From: Candidatus Omnitrophota bacterium
GTDB lineage: Bacteria > Omnitrophota > Gorgyraeia > Tantalellales > Tantalellaceae
NCBI GenBank assembly: GCA_024277375.1
Contig: JAJRVD010000082.1
Coordinates: 1 to 32,058 of the forward strand
DNA: 32,058 nucleotides
Direction: 5' to 3'
The position numbers were made by a program, and so were the translations under genes. This document shows positions 3,401-31,863 of this stretch, piece by piece (the stretch's first letter is position 1; each line of letters starts with the position of its first letter). The notes under the pieces were generated by a model. That model was given only the letters and a program-made list of their open reading frames with translations, was not told the origin of the DNA and did not search any database.

Positions 3401-6400
3401 TTCTAGCCACCGTGCTGGGGCCAGTGATAAGAGTTTTTACGGTTTTATCACACTGGATATCTTTTCGTTTGAAACATAAAAGAGGTGTACCTCTTTTAAT
3501 AACTCTTTTAACGGCCCCTATCCCACAAGGAGTAGGCATGGTAGGGGTGCCGGCACAGATACTACACAGGACGGGATTCAAAAAGACACTTTCGGATATA
3601 AAATATTTTAGGAGCATAAAAGCAATAGCAGCCAGGCTCTTTGAAGTGATAACTCTCTCGGAATTAAACGAAGCTGAAAAAGCAGAGCTAATAAAAGACC
3701 GATTTTACCTGGCAGATAGCATATTCCGTCTGCAGGAGGAGGGTAAGCTGAAGATCGTAAGCACGTACTATAGTTTTGAAAAGCTGCTTACATTGTCGTC
3801 AGAATATTATGGAGCGGATAATAAAAATAGCGGTATTTTGATCATTGATAACGCCGCTAAGATCAAGCAGATCAGGGAAGACCTCAAGTTTGCCTTAAGC
3901 GATAACAAATCGAAGCTCAAAGTTTTCTACTTTCTAGACATTAAGAAATTTTTGAAAAATAAAAGAAGAGATAGTAATTATATCAAGCGGCTTGAAACGC
4001 CAGCAAAAATGCTTCCCGACGGGTCGCCATATACTATTTTTACGCGTTTAAGAGACAGCTTTAATGGCGAGTTTGTTTCCTTAGAAACAATACGCGTAAC
4101 AACTAAAGGACGCGCGAAGGACAAGCATTTATCAAAAGGTACCGTAGAGAGAGACCTGAACACTTTGTATTTTCTTGGTCTTCTCGAGAAGAAAAAACCG
4201 GGAACAGATATTGTGTATAAAGCATCAGACCTGAGCCCGCCTCAATGGACAATGGTAGAACCAGTGCTTGCTTCTCTTGGAGCGAGGCCTGGAAGCGAAA
4301 AAAGAACGCAAGCCAAGGAAATGATAGCGATAGCATTAGAGTTAAAGAAGGAAGATATACATAAAGAGAAAAAGAATCCTATAAATGTTGATGTGTTTCT
4401 TTTAAGGCTAAAAGGGGTGTTGCTTGGTCGGGGTGCTCTTTTTAGGGCAATCGAAGCTGGCAAGGTAATTAGCTTTAATGTCGCAAAAGCGCTTAAAAAG
4501 CGATGGGAAGATCGGCCGCTTGGAAAAATCCTTAAAAACAATCGATCTGACCTAACGGTTCTTTCTCTCATGGCGTTTATTGAAGGAATTGATGAGACTT
4601 CCGAAGGCTATAAGGAAATGCTCTTTAAGCGGCTTAGCCAGATAGTAGAGGAGAGCAATGGATATCCCGACGAAATACAAGAAATGATAGTGTTTGAAAT
4701 CGAACACAATCCTGAATTCAGAGATGTTGCTGAAAAAGCGGGATTCGAAATAGATGATGCCACAAAAACGCTTATTAAGAAAAACAGACCAATAGCTAAT
4801 CCGCCCTCGACAAACACGCTTAAGGTGATGATCCTGCCAGGGCTAATACCATCCGCCCCCGTACGTATTATTGCTACGCTCTGCGTGTTGATCTATCTGC
4901 TCTCGCCGTACATTAGATACTTTTGGGAAAGAATAACGCAATTAAATTTTTCACGCCTTCAGCTTGCCGATGACCCAGCGATAGTGGCCTACACAACGAT
5001 GTTGAATACAGCGGACAAAGATAGAGGAGGAACAAAACGTATAACATTAAAAATCGCTTCCGAAGATAAAAGCGCCACCTATAGGAGACTTAAGCGAGCA
5101 GAAAATCTTATCAACGAGGGCAAAGGAAATGAATGTTTTGAAGAAATCATAAAGATCTTACAGATATTAGTTGTTAACGTTCAAAAAGATCCCAACATAT
5201 ATGCAATTCGTCAGCTGGTAAGGGAATACGCATCTTCAGAATATTGTCTTCAGGAAAAAGCATACCGAATGGATGAAATTCTGGAGGGAATGAAAGAGTA
5301 TGATAAAAAAACGGAAAGGACAAAACGAACCCTAAAGCCTATGGTTAGGCGGTTGATAATCGCTAAAAAAGAAAAGATCTCCGCAAAGAGGAAAAAGATC
5401 AAGATCGACTTTGGAAGAGGAATAGGGGGAGACAAGGCAGCCATAAACAGCTTGATAAGATCAGGGACAATGATAGAAGAAGCGTTTTCTTCTATTTTCA
5501 AGAGAGAGGACCTGAAGATGGAAGACATTGAAAAAATCAGAGTTACATATTTCGGAGCGGGTGGATTTAAGAGAGTATACAGAGCGTCAATAGCTTTAAA
5601 AGACAGGTCGTATGCTTTTAATTTTTTGATAAAGGTTGTAAAAGAAGATGTTGTGCGGTCAGATTCGGGAAACGTATATGACCTTAAATACGCGAAACGA
5701 TTGCACGCAATAGCGAACAAAGCTAGGGAAAAAGATTTCAGCCTTCATGTTCCTACCGGAGGAGTGTATGAGTATATAGAAGCCTCCGGTAAAGAAAGAA
5801 TAGTTTTTACGGAGGCGCAGCTTGCGAAGACAACGGTAAATCTTCCGGATGAGATAAAAGGGAGGATCATCGTGGCGGCATATCTTCGGTACTGGAAGGC
5901 TTTTGACAGGAGGCTATTTCTTGAGGATCCTAAGCCATCTAACATTGTTATACGAAAATCGCAGGAAACATACATGGCTACGGTTATTGATGTTGATAAC
6001 GTAGTGTTCGATAGGGAGATAATGCCGCATGAGCTTGTAGCCGCGTTCTTAGGGTTTGGGTTTGGGTGTGACGATATCGCCTTGGGAGTGATCGATACCC
6101 TCCCGCGTGAAGATGCCGAAGGGTTTATTAGAAAAGCTTGTGGGGCAATGCGTTTATTTAGAGATAAACGAGGAGAGGACCTTAGACTGTTTTTTGATAT
6201 CGTGCGGGAAGAAGAAGCATATAGGTTGCCGGAGATAATTACTGGATTTGAACGCCCAAATATTTCCATTACTGTAAACGGTAAAGAGATCGAGATCTCC
6301 AGCGGGGCGACTTTGCTGGACCTTATGAATGATTGTTCTGTAGGCGTAAAGGGAACAGCCATAGTGTATAACAGGAATAGAATAAAGGTTGGTAATGATG

Positions 6401-9400
6401 AATCAAAAGAGGGGATTGCTGGATCTATTTTACTGGAAGATGGCGATTTGGTCGAATTTAGAGAAGAGAAACGCGGAAGTATAGTTTTTGGCGATCACGA
6501 TATAACAACAAAAGGAAAGACCCTGAAAGCAATATTCCTACCATGGCTAATACCATCCGCCCCCGTACGTATTATTGCTACGCTATGCGTGTTGATCTAT
6601 CTGCTCTCGCCGTACATTAGATACTTTTGGAAGAGAATACCCGGCTTTTTATTGGCCGACATATATGGTAGGGGCGTATTGCAATACGCCCCTACCGGGG
6701 CTTTCACGAAAGAGAAAGAAAAGACGAAGGGGAACACGTTATTTTTTGAGGGGCGGCACGGTAGATCCGGACGAAATGGGTGGTCCGGACAAAATGGGCG
6801 CGGAAGTTATTCGAACTTGAACTGGGAAGATACAAAAGCAATTCTAAACGACTACAAGGGAAGCGAAGAGCTGATAAACGTAAATAAGGACAATGGGATA
6901 CGAATTTTAAGAAATATTATACGAAAGAATGAAAGAATCGAAGAAGACGACATCAGGATTCTCATTGAGAACGCCAAGGGAGGCAACATGGCGAGCGCGG
7001 CGTTCTTTCTGGCAATGTACCGCGAGTGGGTGGAGACCGTGAGTTCACTGCTGGGGATCTCAGAAAGAAGATTAAAGGCGGCAACAACAGTGCATCTTCA
7101 AAATCTCTCACAATATTTATCGACCTTTAATATGGACAGACCATTTCAGCCCTGGTTATACAAAAAACTCTACTTTTCATTGTACGATATATACGCGGTA
7201 GATGGGAAACTGAAGAAACGTACGTATTATGACGTAAAGAAAGACGGCACAGAGGAGGAGTGGGAGGACTTGCAAGCTCTTTTGCGCAGAGAAATAATTT
7301 TAAATCAGACCAAAGGAAAAATTCCGAACGGCAGGGTTTTGTTAAGCCAGGACGCGAAAGACGCTCCAGTGCTGCAGGAAACTCTGGAAAGCAACGAGTC
7401 AATAAGCGAAGCCTGGTATAGGTTCCAACGAAAGGCCAGAAAAAATATATCCTCAAAATTCATTGACAATAAAATAAGTAAAGAAAAATTTGATCTGGGA
7501 GCTGTGTCTGATGAGGAGTTAGATGTTTTTCTGGAAGGGCACCCGATGATCGAAAGCGTATGTGATGACAGAGGGTTTTACCTGGTCGGAGAAATATTAA
7601 AGGAGATCGAAGCCTGGAAACATGAAGAAGCGTTTGCGGTCATGATGAGGGGCCATCAGGATATAAGCGAAATAGGAATAAACGGTCTAAAGGATCAAGT
7701 ATGGAGTGATCTTATCCATTCTTCGGGAGCGCAGAAGAACGTAAAAACAATAATGCCTGAGATCGAAAAAGCGATAAAGGCGGTTATTGCCCGGACAAAA
7801 GAAAGTTCGGACAACAAAGGAGAGAAAGGGATATCTGTTAATGTTGAGATCGAACAGTCGCTGGGGCAAGGGGATCAAATGCCTAACGATATGAGCGAGG
7901 CCAAAAAAACAAATTTAATAAACGCTATCCGCAAGGACGACGCGTTTTACGGAATAAGTTATTTTATCGGTAAAGTTCTACGTTGTTTCAACGGCAAGAT
8001 AAGCGCTAGAGGGATGAATAAGCTGGTTGGGGAATACATAAGTCTGAATTTTCCCGGAGCCGGAAAAGAAAAGAAAAACTTTAGATTTAATAACGGTTAC
8101 AAAGACGGCGACTCATATTGTCTGCCGTATCGGAAAAAAAGCGAAAGAAGTTGGATCCTGCGGTATTCTTATGAGGAAGATATCCTGACAGATAAGCTGT
8201 TCCGGATAAATATATTCAGAAATTCGTGGGATTCAGGGGAAGAGGTTATCACTATTTTATTGGCCTCGGATAGTTTGGCGAATGAGAAAGAAATAATAGG
8301 TAAAGACAGTATATATAACGCGATAAGAGAAGAGTGGCTCAGCCCGAACGGTCTTTGGGAAGATTCCAAAGACCGCGAAAAAAGATTTATGGTAAACGAA
8401 CTGGCAAGGTTTCTAGGGAAGAGCCCGACCAGAATAGTTGCCAAAGACTTTTTTGTGAAAGTACCGCAGTTCGGGGAGAGAGGTCTCGGGGATTTTCTGG
8501 GATGGGAGGAAGATAAGTTTTATTGCGAAGAGTATGATCGGGAGGTTAAAAAGCTAAAAAAACGATTAAAGATCCAAGATAATTTGATCTATTGTGATGA
8601 CGTGGTAAAGAAGTTCTTAGGGGGAAGACTTACGTGGAAATGGACTACGGACGCGGCAAAATATTATTTAATGGAATATGTGGCCGGATCAAAAGGAAAA
8701 ACACTGGGGTCTTTGAGGCGAAGCGATTTCAACGGCGACAAAAAACGCAAGACCAAAGAGATGATAGGGCTTCTGGAATGGGCAAAGGCTGAATTTAGTT
8801 GTAAGAGCCTCGATGAAGCCTTGTTTGCGTTGAAGAATTATTTTGGCATTGAACATGTAAAGATAGGGAAAGAAGAGATCCTCGGACTGTTTCTAAGCGG
8901 GCGCATTGATTGGGGTGATACAACACTTCCGGCGAAACGTCGAATGCTTATAGAGCTTGCTGATGCTTTAGGGTTAGAAGGCGGACCGGGCGCGTTAAAG
9001 CCAAAACATTTCAGGATGCCCATTCCTCAATGGGGGAGGAAACAATTGCGGTATTTATTGGAACATATGCAGAAGCAATATAAAGATGTAGGTCTTCCTG
9101 GAGCATTGCAAAGGTTAAAAGAAGAAGCGGGGATAATCGACCTTACCATGCCGGAGGCGAGATTTAAATTTATAACAACAGATTGGGGCGTGACTGAAAA
9201 CATTCTGAAAGAACATACAACGTACAGCACGCTGCCGGATAACATTTTGGATATTCTGAAGATAAAAATTGAGAACATTTTTAATAAGAAAAAACGAAAA
9301 ATTATCATAAACAAGTTAGCCGTTAACGCTCAAGACGGGAACCGGGCCAGTTATGCTGTTTTATGGAAATTAGCTAAAAGATCGTATGACGAGCGTATCC

Positions 9401-12400
9401 GGAGGTGGGCAGACAAGAAAGGGGTGCCGGAGGAAAAACTAAAGCGGGGATTTAATGACATTGCGGGGACGCTCAGGTATTGCATAGCAAGATTCAAAGC
9501 CGGGGAGAATTTGTCGTTTTTAGAATATTTGAACCAAACATTATATTGGAGGGTTTATGACGCGGGGGTTGTTCTCGAGGCCTTAAAAGAGGATAAGTCT
9601 GACTCAACTGCCCCCGCCGGTTTTGTTGTTCCCGCGGTATTATATGGTGCGGACAAAATTCACTTGAGCGATGTTGCGTGGATGGCTTTATTGATCTATT
9701 TAGCGACAGCTGTTCAGAACTATTTTCTTAAGGGAATCTTGCCATACTTAAAAGCCAACGCTCCGTCCGGGATAAAAGAGACGTTAATTCTTGTTGGCAG
9801 GAAAATACACGATGACGTAAGATCTCTCTGGAATTATGTCCCCACGATGCTCTCAATTGATACCTACGGTAGGGGCGTATTGCAATACGACCCTACAATA
9901 AAACATAGATACACATCCGAACGCGCAGACCTGAACACATTTTTTAGAAAGAAACAAGAAGGCGTCGGGGCATACGAGCGGAAACAAACAGAAGAAGAGT
10001 ATACTTACGAAATGTTATTGGAGGAGGGGTTCAAGATCACCCTTCCTGAAAAAACAAAAATCAGTAAACATTACGGAATACCTGTTGTAACGGCGAAGGT
10101 TTATCGGAAAGATGGCAGTTTTCAAGGCGGCATCTTGCTATATATCGTAGAAGACTGCAAAACAATAATAATAGATAAATGCGAGCCACAATTTAAAAAG
10201 GAACGCAAGGGAAGGGGAAGAGCATTGTTAAGGCATATTCTTAGTCGTCCCGAATACGCCGAATACAAAGTAATAGTGCGAGCATCAAGTTCGTTTCAAA
10301 AGTCTTTCGCGAGAATGTATGAATATCAACCGGTAACCGAGCATATAAATGGAAGCCGGGCCGTAGCGGATATCATTCAGAAGAACGTGCTGAATAAAAT
10401 AACAGAGCCAAGTCAGCTAATAAGTGTTGGTGAAGCATATAGAGATAAGACGTTTGAGTTATTGCAGGATCACTGCACGCTTGCGACGCTTTATGGGGTA
10501 GTGCCAAGGGAAAATAAAACGAAGAAAACAATAACAAACAGAAACACCGCCGGAGCAAAAAAGCTGATCTCCCCTTCAGGCGATACGTCTGAATTCGTGA
10601 ACATGATCATACCGCTGGCCCTGTACGGACAAGAAGGCATAACAACAGTGGATATAGCGTTTGCGAGTTTATTGGTGGGGTTACTTATCGGATTAAAGAA
10701 TTACTTTCTTAAAGGGATCCTGCCGTACTTGCGCGCCAACGCGCCGTCGGGGATAGAAGAAGTCTTATTTCTCGCCGGTCGAAAAATTTATAAAGACATT
10801 CAAGCCCTTTGGAACAAGATCCCGCAATTAAATTTTTTAGAATTTCAGCCATTTGGCGGAATTCTCCAAAAACATATTTTAAAAGCAAATAAATATGATA
10901 AAGAAGAGAATCTCATGATGTTCAAAAAAGGGACCATCGATACGACAGAAAGCGATGATTACGATAGGCTTTTGCTGGAATATAAGAATGGAGATTTTGA
11001 TAGCTACAAAGTTCTGATTGCGAAAGCCAAAAATATTTTATTAAGACGGTTAGAGCATTGGTCCACAAAGCTAAATGTGCCAGCAGAAGACTTAAGACGA
11101 GAACTTGCATACAACCTCGAAGCTGTAGTGAACAAATGCGCGGAAAATTATAGATCAAATAGATTTAAAGTCTATTTAACGATAGTTATCATCAATGACG
11201 TAAGGAAAGAACTCGAGAAATTGGGTTACACTACTCGTAATGGAAAACGCAAAGTGTTTCCCGATAAAAAAGACAAGCTATCTTCCGTGACAAAAGAGCC
11301 GGAGACTAAACAGAAAGAGATAAAAGATAAAACCGGATCCAGTAGCATAGTTTTCGGGAAGAAAGACGAGCGGCCAGTCGCAAAAAAACCCGCAAAAAAT
11401 CCGACAAGAAAGAAGTCGAAGGGTAAGTCTAAAGCAACAAAACAATATCAAAAAACGCCAAATATTTCACGTAAAGATACAGCTGCAAAAACAGGTAAAC
11501 CCGTTGTTTTAGTGGAAACGCGCAGCAAAAACCTGAAAATGGCAAAAGAACTACAAGGCGATGAAGCGTTCACGGTCCTCAGCCCCTTATTGGCACAGAT
11601 CATAGGCTGTTTTGACGGCAAAATAGGGACAAAGGCTACAAAATTTTTAATGAAAAAACATTTTGAACAACATTTTCCCGACATTGGTCTTGCGAAATTC
11701 AAAATAGATAGTTTATCAAAAAAAGGAAAGACGTATTATCTTTCATATCTGGATCAAAATAAAAAGGAATATACAATCGGATATGACCTGTTTAGTTGTG
11801 AGCAGCTTGGAAGGAGCGGAAAAGTTATTGTTTCGTTTTCCGGGGAAAAAACGACAAAAAGGTATGAGATAAGTTGGAACTCAAGAGGTTTTGGCGAAAA
11901 ATACAACATAATAAGCCCGTACAGTATATTGAGATATTTACCAAAAGAGGGTCTTCTTCCAAGGGATAGCTGGGACAATGTCACCGACGACGAACTGCGA
12001 TTTATTCTTGAAGAAATAGCAGAAGTTGTTGTGGCTACTCCGGCTACATTGAAAGCAAACCCTGTGCGTAATACTCATATTCCCGCGTTTAATAATAGAA
12101 AGTTCGCGGGTTTGATAAAACTGGCGACGAGACGTTATGAGCTTCCGGGCAAATACAGCGCGGCACTGGATTTGCTTAAAGTTGCCCTGGGAATAAAGCT
12201 TAAGATGGAAAATGTTGTTGATTTTTTAAACAGTAAAGATCAATTGGCTCACGGCGACTGGAACTTAATAGTGAATACCCCTGGTGCGGTGTATCATTTG
12301 TTGGAGCTTTTAGTTAAAGCCGTAAATAAGAAGGGTGTAAAAAATATAGATGACTTAACTATCGGTCACTTTAATAAAGGGATTCCGGAGCTTAACGGCA

Positions 12401-22077: not shown

Positions 22078-22104
22078 TAGGGGTACGGCGCGCCGTGCCC
22101 CTGC
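22078..22104. repeat. GTAGGGG-type palindrome with GC-rich centre
   Basis: GTAGGGGTACGGCG faces an imperfect complement (two wobble-type differences). It shares the GTAGGGG...CCCCT(A/G)C ends of the palindromes in the giant gene, with a different centre. It lies between the divergent tRNA and purB promoters. Confidence 0.75.
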
Positions 22105-22220: not shown

Positions 22221-22337
22221 GGGCTGTGTCGTAATTCGTTTTGCGGATGCCCGCGTATAATTTACTGTAGGGGTTCGATCCATCGAACCCGATATAACGG
22301 GCTTGATGGATCAAGCCCCTGCATTATGACACAGTCT
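22221..22337. repeat. MITE-like element, copy A
   Basis: 117 bp bounded by inverted ends CTGTGTCGTAAT and ATTATGACACAG (one mismatch). It carries a 56-bp core (22267-22322) made of GTAGGGG ends around two inner palindromes (TTCGAT/ATCGAA and CTTGAT/ATCAAG). The inverted copy B is at 27518-27659. There is no coding capacity. It lies wholly inside the purB leader. Confidence 0.85.
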
Positions 22338-25987: not shown

Positions 25988-25998
25988 TTCGGCATGAT

Positions 25999-26054
25999 GT
26001 AGGGGCTTGATTTATCAAGCCCGCTATAACGGGTTCGATGAATCGAACCCCTAC
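25999..26054. repeat. GTAGGGG double-palindrome core, solo copy C
   Basis: 56 bp matching the cores of MITE-like copies A and B but without their CTGTGTC ends. Outer GTAGGGG/CCCCTAC arms enclose CTTGAT/ATCAAG, then CCC...GGG, then TTCGAT/ATCGAA, so it can fold as a branched hairpin. It sits in the purD-purE gap and is readable as a 5' extension of purE, which creates a false upstream start. Confidence 0.85.
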
Positions 26055-26105
26055 ACTATCCCGTACCCGGTGAGTTGTCAGTGCGTTGGCAAAAAGGAGC
26101 TGTTT

Positions 26106-27517: not shown

Positions 27518-27659
27518 AGACTGTGTCATGATGTAGGGGCTTGATCCATCAAGCCCGCTATATCGGGTTCGATGAATCGAACCCCTACAGTAAATTGTAT
27601 GCGGCCATCCGCCGGTAAATTGTATGCGGCCATCCACAAAACGAATTACGACACGGCTC
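27518..27659. repeat. MITE-like element, copy B (inverted, with 25-bp internal duplication)
   Basis: 142 bp, the reverse orientation of copy A at 22221-22337, bounded by AGACTGTGTC and GACACGGCTC. The core is at 27533-27588. A 20-bp unit (27591-27610) repeats at 27616-27635 after GCCGG. The resulting 25-bp period is exactly the length difference from copy A. It separates rpiB from glyA. Confidence 0.85.
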
Positions 27660-31429: not shown

Positions 31430-31455
31430 TAGGGGCGTATCGCGATACGCCCCTA
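31430..31455. repeat. GTAGGGG-type palindrome, intergenic copy
   Basis: A perfect 26-bp palindrome (TAGGGGCGTATCG and its complement), followed by CC. It differs from the copies inside the giant gene only at the centre (TCGCGA for TTGCAA). Confidence 0.85.
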
Positions 31456-31486
31456 CCATGTGGGTTGCAATCAATAGGGGATGCAT

Positions 31487-31772: not shown

Positions 31773-31863
31773 TTTCAAGGATATTCTCACATGTGAGAAT
31801 ATCCTTGAAATCGCGCGATTTCAGCTCCATAATCGGGATAATATCCCGATTATGGAGCTGAAA
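31773..31863. repeat. three abutting palindromes upstream of the transposase gene
   Basis: A perfect 38-bp palindrome (31773-31810, centre CACA|TGTG), an 8-bp palindrome TCGCGCGA (31811-31818), and a 45-bp hairpin with 21-bp arms and AAT loop (31819-31863). Together they cover 91 bp without a gap. The right arm of the last one includes the GGAG (31854-31857) that precedes the transposase start. The CA|TG centre of the first fits two abutted IS ends of the TG...CA type. Confidence 0.85.

Follow-up and report, generated by a model that had tools for sequence, protein, structure and literature searches.

An in-frame palindrome in a giant gene of a Candidatus Omnitrophota bacterium is very probably a double-foot GTAG REP tolerated in protein linkers

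Results

A 28-bp palindrome with GTAG feet occurs twice in a giant gene

The window, i.e. the whole stretch of 32,058 nucleotides of Candidatus Omnitrophota DNA that was analysed (contig JAJRVD010000082.1), contains a giant gene that codes for N-terminal NUDIX and nucleotidyltransferase domains, the remainder being without Pfam match, and in which membrane modules recur (Table 1). Two of these, modules B and C, are each followed by a palindromic element, as an earlier note on this DNA had described, and both copies indeed share one frame of the open reading frame (ORF) 484-20514 (6,676 amino acids), where they read GRGVLQY(A/D)PT. This peptide, like all others given here, is predicted from the DNA reading frame.

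The first element is a perfect palindrome of 30 bp at 6667-6696, just as the earlier note had it, but the length of the element had to be revised. In the flank statistics of 71 genomic copies, conservation reaches 94% at the base that completes the GTAG/CTAC foot and falls to background at the next, so that the 30th base pair of copy 1 is due to chance and the conserved unit comprises 28 bp, GTAG-GGGCGTATTGCAATACGCCC-CTAC; the 71 copies thus have the GTAG hairpin foot, with CTAC at the other end, that marks REPs. The second element had been said to carry one change in its core. There is one change within the unit, but it is located at 9890 in the right arm (C to A, converting A to D in the peptide) and leaves the core unaffected, and the last base of 9868-9897 differs from copy 1, too. 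The relative outside genes at 31430 was found again, with its span corrected to 31430-31456. The palindromes at 6667, 9868 and 31430 are far above chance, with 0 matches in 100 shuffles of the stretch.

A fourth relative, with another core (22078-22103), and three GTAG-footed inverted dimers (at 22243, 25993 and 27518) are absent from the earlier note. An Rfam search of the stretch returned tRNA only. At 31773-31863 two perfect palindromes of 38 and 45 bp adjoin each other directly 5' of an IS3-like transposase frame that starts at about 31867.

Table 1. Features of the window and REP copies inside genes of the host genome
Feature	Position	Strand	Remarks
Giant gene	484-20514	+	6,676 codons; two REP copies, GRGVLQYAPT and GRGVLQYDPT
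Membrane module A	4832-4935	+	DNA 95% identical to module B; no element after it
Membrane module B	6536-6639	+	Element 1 begins 28 bp further on
Double-foot GTAG REP, copy 1	6668-6695	.	28 bp, exact family consensus; GRGVLQYAPT; within 6667-6696
Membrane module C	9646-9867	+	Followed by element 2; 41-codon offset from anchor, as in B
REP copy 2	9869-9896	.	One change, 9890 C to A; GRGVLQYDPT
Membrane module D	10624-10860	+	Paralogue of C, 62% nucleotide identity over the aligned 37 codons; no element
Sister-family REP copy	22078-22103	.	Intergenic; core ACGGCGCGCCGT
Third GTAG family, inverted REP dimer (REPIN-like)	22243-22337	+	About 95 bp
Same dimer family, partial copy	25993-26058	-	
Same dimer family, copy	27518-27612	-	
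Intergenic REP copy	31430-31456	.	Core TATCGCGATA; left GTAG foot lacks its first base
PyrK, one REP copy			VEAYGNTPLQ
DNA polymerase IV, one REP copy			VGAHCNTPLP
GAF-GGDEF protein (diguanylate cyclase), one REP copy			VGARHAVPLL
Radical SAM protein, YhcC/YtqA family, one REP copy			VGARHAVLLL

The element is dispersed and mostly intergenic in the host genome

In the host genome (2.07 Mb in 108 contigs, 95.7% complete) the core GTATTGCAATAC is present in 28 copies and the sister core ACGGCATGCCGT in 43, each counted with up to 3 mismatches, and a control with the reversed pattern gave 0 matches. The best protein matches of the retrieved stretches, with the top two at 67% and 65%, make Omnitrophota the most likely phylum of this genome. 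The element is thus dispersed, as the earlier note had supposed, and far from confined to the giant gene. Of the two outcomes by which that note would have been refuted, presence at one site in all distant orthologues with ordinary codon evolution and restriction to the giant gene, neither was observed. In the 319 kb of own-genome sequence examined, the REPIN-like dimer (about 95 bp) was counted 36 times, in no case (0/36) within a long ORF.

Almost all of the 78 copies that were examined together with their flanks lie between genes or upstream of them, i.e. are distributed as is typical of REPs, and only six lie inside confident genes, all in frame; these counts are based on ORFs and homologues around the retrieved copies of the own genome. 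With the coding fraction taken as 0.8-0.9, about 62-70 of the 78 would be expected in genes, i.e. in-gene copies are strongly depleted. One of the three REP frames contains TAG and is used by none of the six. Two of the six share one 20-kb gene (P ~0.002), a value to be read in the light of the fact that this gene was picked because it carries them.

The four ordinary genes support the proposal that the palindrome enters genes in frame, since the REP peptide is missing from all aligned relatives (29 sequences for PyrK, 18 for DNA polymerase IV, 8 for the GGDEF protein and 22 for the YhcC-type protein). As 28 bp is not a multiple of three, a clean insertion cannot keep the frame, and each case must have lost neighbouring bases or replaced part of a loop. 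The net gain over the commonest length among the relatives is about 9 residues in PyrK, about 5 in DNA polymerase IV and about 2 each in the radical SAM and GGDEF proteins, and where good orthologues allow a comparison, which is so for four genes, the REP in three of them replaces part of a loop rather than simply lengthening it. The sites are loops or linkers: in PyrK the REP precedes the NAD-binding domain, in DNA polymerase IV it lies within the C-terminal domain, and in the third example it stands before the VSIG-type strand of GGDEF, where the loop that holds the REP also varies among solved structures.

One exact 28-mer is found in many phyla and inside Y1 transposase genes

At least 117 stretches of reference genomes, which represent many phyla, contain the exact 28-mer. 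Among 125 copies examined, several are in frame within conserved genes, long ORFs that resemble spurious antisense frames having been left out of the gene counts: in PheS it lies precisely between the N-terminal and the catalytic Pfam domain, in an oxidoreductase just before the FlpD domain, and further examples are an FdhE-like protein and a SpoU-like methylase. An FdhE-like protein from Planctomycetes (MHYW01000082, L195:3463) contains two different REP peptides, VGAYCNTPLR and VGAGLKPAPT. The exact 28-mer also occurs in five viral contigs (L333-L337). A search of viral contigs for the transposase found none, and plasmid sequences gave no match to the 30-mer.

In at least five cases, from Zixibacteria, Chloroflexi, Syntrophaceae, Nitrospirae and one further bacterium, the exact 28-mer is part of a Y1 transposase gene, in which it immediately follows the HUH motif. 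GTAG palindromes that are perfect or nearly so occupy the same place in L139, L162, L165, L230, L249, L250 and L302-L331, which thereby show an in-frame REP between the HuH and Y motifs, a feature of TnpA-REP subclass 2.4, their likeness to this subclass being judged by gene features; L238, L248 and L249 have variant or decayed palindromes in Y1 transposase genes. In L302-L331, a sample of the same transposase family picked regardless of palindromes, the post-HUH loop of 12 of the 30 genes contains a palindrome that has GTAG feet and 12 or more paired bases, and most others have shorter or split palindromes there, whereas shuffles reach at most 10 paired bases. The cores vary between the transposase genes, some loops of this sample contain whole inverted dimers, and in three of six genomes (G273, G276, G237) the in-gene core is also found elsewhere in the same genome.

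Transposase and REPs are associated in other genomes: among 384 genomes of the phylum, at least three REPs are present in 19 of the 63 with the transposase vs. 15 of the 321 without it (P = 3e-8). The host genome has 34 REPs by the pattern used for this comparison, and no subclass-2.4-like transposase was found in its assembly (95.7% complete). It has six Y1 genes; the three that were tested score 61-66 bits vs. the cut-off of 80 of NCBIfam REP_Tyr, and neither core lies within ~1.5 kb of the host Y1 genes. Either the host has lost this transposase, or the gene is missing from the assembly, or a different Y1 gene takes its role.

Discussion

Taken together, these features suggest that the palindrome is very probably a double-foot GTAG REP, mobile by a transposase of the RAYT/TnpA-REP type, that has landed in tolerant linkers. 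It would be a non-autonomous mobile element of 28 bp, consisting of GTAG, a stem and CTAC, of the kind that is moved by REP-associated HUH/Y1 transposases, which may recognise the GTAG-footed hairpin in single-stranded DNA and move or copy it. New copies would land across the genome and those in genes would mostly be lost, whereas landings in a surface loop or an inter-domain linker that keep the frame could persist as neutral or nearly neutral peptides. As 28 is not a multiple of three, the frame would be kept through a compensating small deletion or replacement, and the giant gene would hold two REPs because they are tolerated in its linkers. The data are explained by such tolerance in loops and linkers, and here the idea of a tolerated, spreading palindrome from the earlier note fits well. 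Several points count against this explanation, namely that no subclass-2.4-like transposase was found in the host, that the host Y1 genes have neither core nearby and the three tested score below the REP_Tyr cut-off, that no empty orthologous site was found for the giant gene (the one relative outside the genome that covers this part is 30% identical, with an alignment that stops before the sites), and that both copies start at the same codon of homologous modules, which would not be expected if they had landed independently and at random.

This offset bears on the history of the two copies, i.e. on how they came to lie in the giant gene. Elements 1 and 2 start exactly 41 codons past the module anchor in B and C, and these modules are homologous (30% amino acid and 42% nucleotide identity, above the 99th percentile of random pairs). 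Judged from the sequences, there may have been two landings at one place, or an older shared element may have been converted. In the latter scenario, a variant of the REP explanation with another history, one old insertion would have been duplicated together with its membrane module and gene conversion would have kept the palindromes alike. The near-identity of modules A and B, 95% over 104 bp of DNA, points to a duplication or gene conversion within the giant gene in the recent past and suggests that such exchange occurs there; it ends 28 bp before the palindrome of B. The similarity between the two REP sites, however, ends within 1-3 bp of the palindrome, and the closest paralogue of each carrier module has no element, which makes this history the less probable one, although it deserves to be kept in mind.

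A further scenario, which we regard as improbable, is that REP sites are re-used, the machinery replacing the palindrome core already in place by a different one. This would explain why different cores occur in one post-HUH loop of transposase genes, why near-identical palindromes are found at the same codon of two homologous giant-gene modules, and why loop residues are replaced in three of four insertions. If it held true, proteins would carry a swappable peptide cassette.

The two copies might alternatively represent a domesticated linker, i.e. the giant protein would use GRGVLQY(A/D)PT after its membrane modules and selection would keep it, in line with the common frame, the common offset and DNA that is identical at 28 of 30 positions between flanks that have diverged. 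We consider this very unlikely, as the peptide is missing from A and D, the most closely paralogous modules, as the same DNA is present tens of times outside genes and is used in another frame in other genes, and as near-identity of the DNA, not of the peptide alone, argues for a recent origin. The use as protein linker that the earlier note had envisaged finds no support, the two frames giving unrelated peptides (GRGVLQYAPT and VGAYCNTPL) in unrelated proteins and loops.

That the palindrome is a transcription terminator or attenuator hairpin translated by chance is hardly credible and was rejected: copy 1 forms a strong RNA hairpin (-37.2 kcal/mol, z -5.2), but no T-run follows it, the fold of copy 2 is no stronger than that of shuffled sequences (z -0.47) and both copies are located deep within a 20-kb ORF.

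Least probable of all is a horizontally acquired Rickettsia palindromic element (RPE). RPEs, too, are short and palindromic and spread in frame through protein genes, and according to the cited passages of PMC10969869 and PMC3733652 they are selfish DNA translated in frame in unrelated proteins, just as the element studied here is in four genes whose relatives do not have it. Hence, the resemblance to Rickettsia noted earlier stands for behaviour, but not for identity. GTAG at both ends is the mark of RAYT REPs, whereas the small intragenic RPE-4 and RPE-6 are CGTC repeats and RPE-1 is longer in what PMC3733652 describes in these passages; there and in those of PMC10969869, the Rickettsia elements, with CGTC repeats or a length of ~150 bp, have another sequence and no GTAG feet, in contrast to the GTAG/CTAC feet found here.

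Closer parallels are known among REPs. In TnpA-REP subclass 2.4 the REP lies within the transposase gene, and this published arrangement (PMC6006769) is what we find in Y1 genes of other phyla, where the palindrome directly follows the HUH motif; unlike in the subclass 2.4 systems, no such transposase was found in the host genome, and the likeness rests on features. A study from 2013 (PMC3733652) reported GTAG REPs within genes, which often were genes of DNA repair: in Opitutus terrae, for instance, most repeats are intergenic and single ones are in frame in ORFs, including those of DNA repair polymerases. In contrast to O. terrae, the cores and hosts differ here and a single gene of 6,676 codons carries the element in two homologous modules, each time at the same offset. 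The third GTAG family of the window is an inverted dimer of REPIN form (PMC3116915), whereas the palindrome in the giant gene consists of one double-foot unit, which might be a dimer that has collapsed, as suggested in PMC6006769.

Given that GTAG REPs inside genes (PMC3733652) and Rickettsia parallels have already been described in the passages cited, our finding is a well-supported new case of GTAG REPs inside genes and a clear case of an already known phenomenon, i.e. the in-frame landing of a REP itself is not new. It extends in-frame REP insertion to a bacterium with a giant gene and to named conserved proteins that have relatives with an empty loop, reveals one exact 28-mer common to genomes of many phyla, and provides transposase genes, sampled without bias, that contain a REP of their own, the cores being many and different. 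Two questions thereby become testable, namely by what route a REP whose clean insertion would break the frame comes to lie in frame, and whether conversion takes place at existing sites.

Other short repeats in genes of the host

The PyrK gene contains a second, unrelated in-frame repeat (GGGGACAGTC...GGGACAGTCCCC), which reads NGDSQRARFSRLRSGQEGQSPG. This repeat family, with GGGACAGTC...GACAGTCCC ends, is in frame both in pyrK (L024:3279-3392, C28) and in the gene of a CheA-like histidine kinase of 757 amino acids (L332:2056-2123, C8). It reads NGDSxRARxxRLRSGQEGQxPG, and the identity of the two copies is 88% across 68 bp. The YhcC-type radical SAM gene (L071:2418-2483, C87), finally, has an in-frame segment, CHPERSEGS, that its relatives do not have and of which short identical pieces are present elsewhere in the own genome. 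Thus, several short repeat families enter genes in the host genome.
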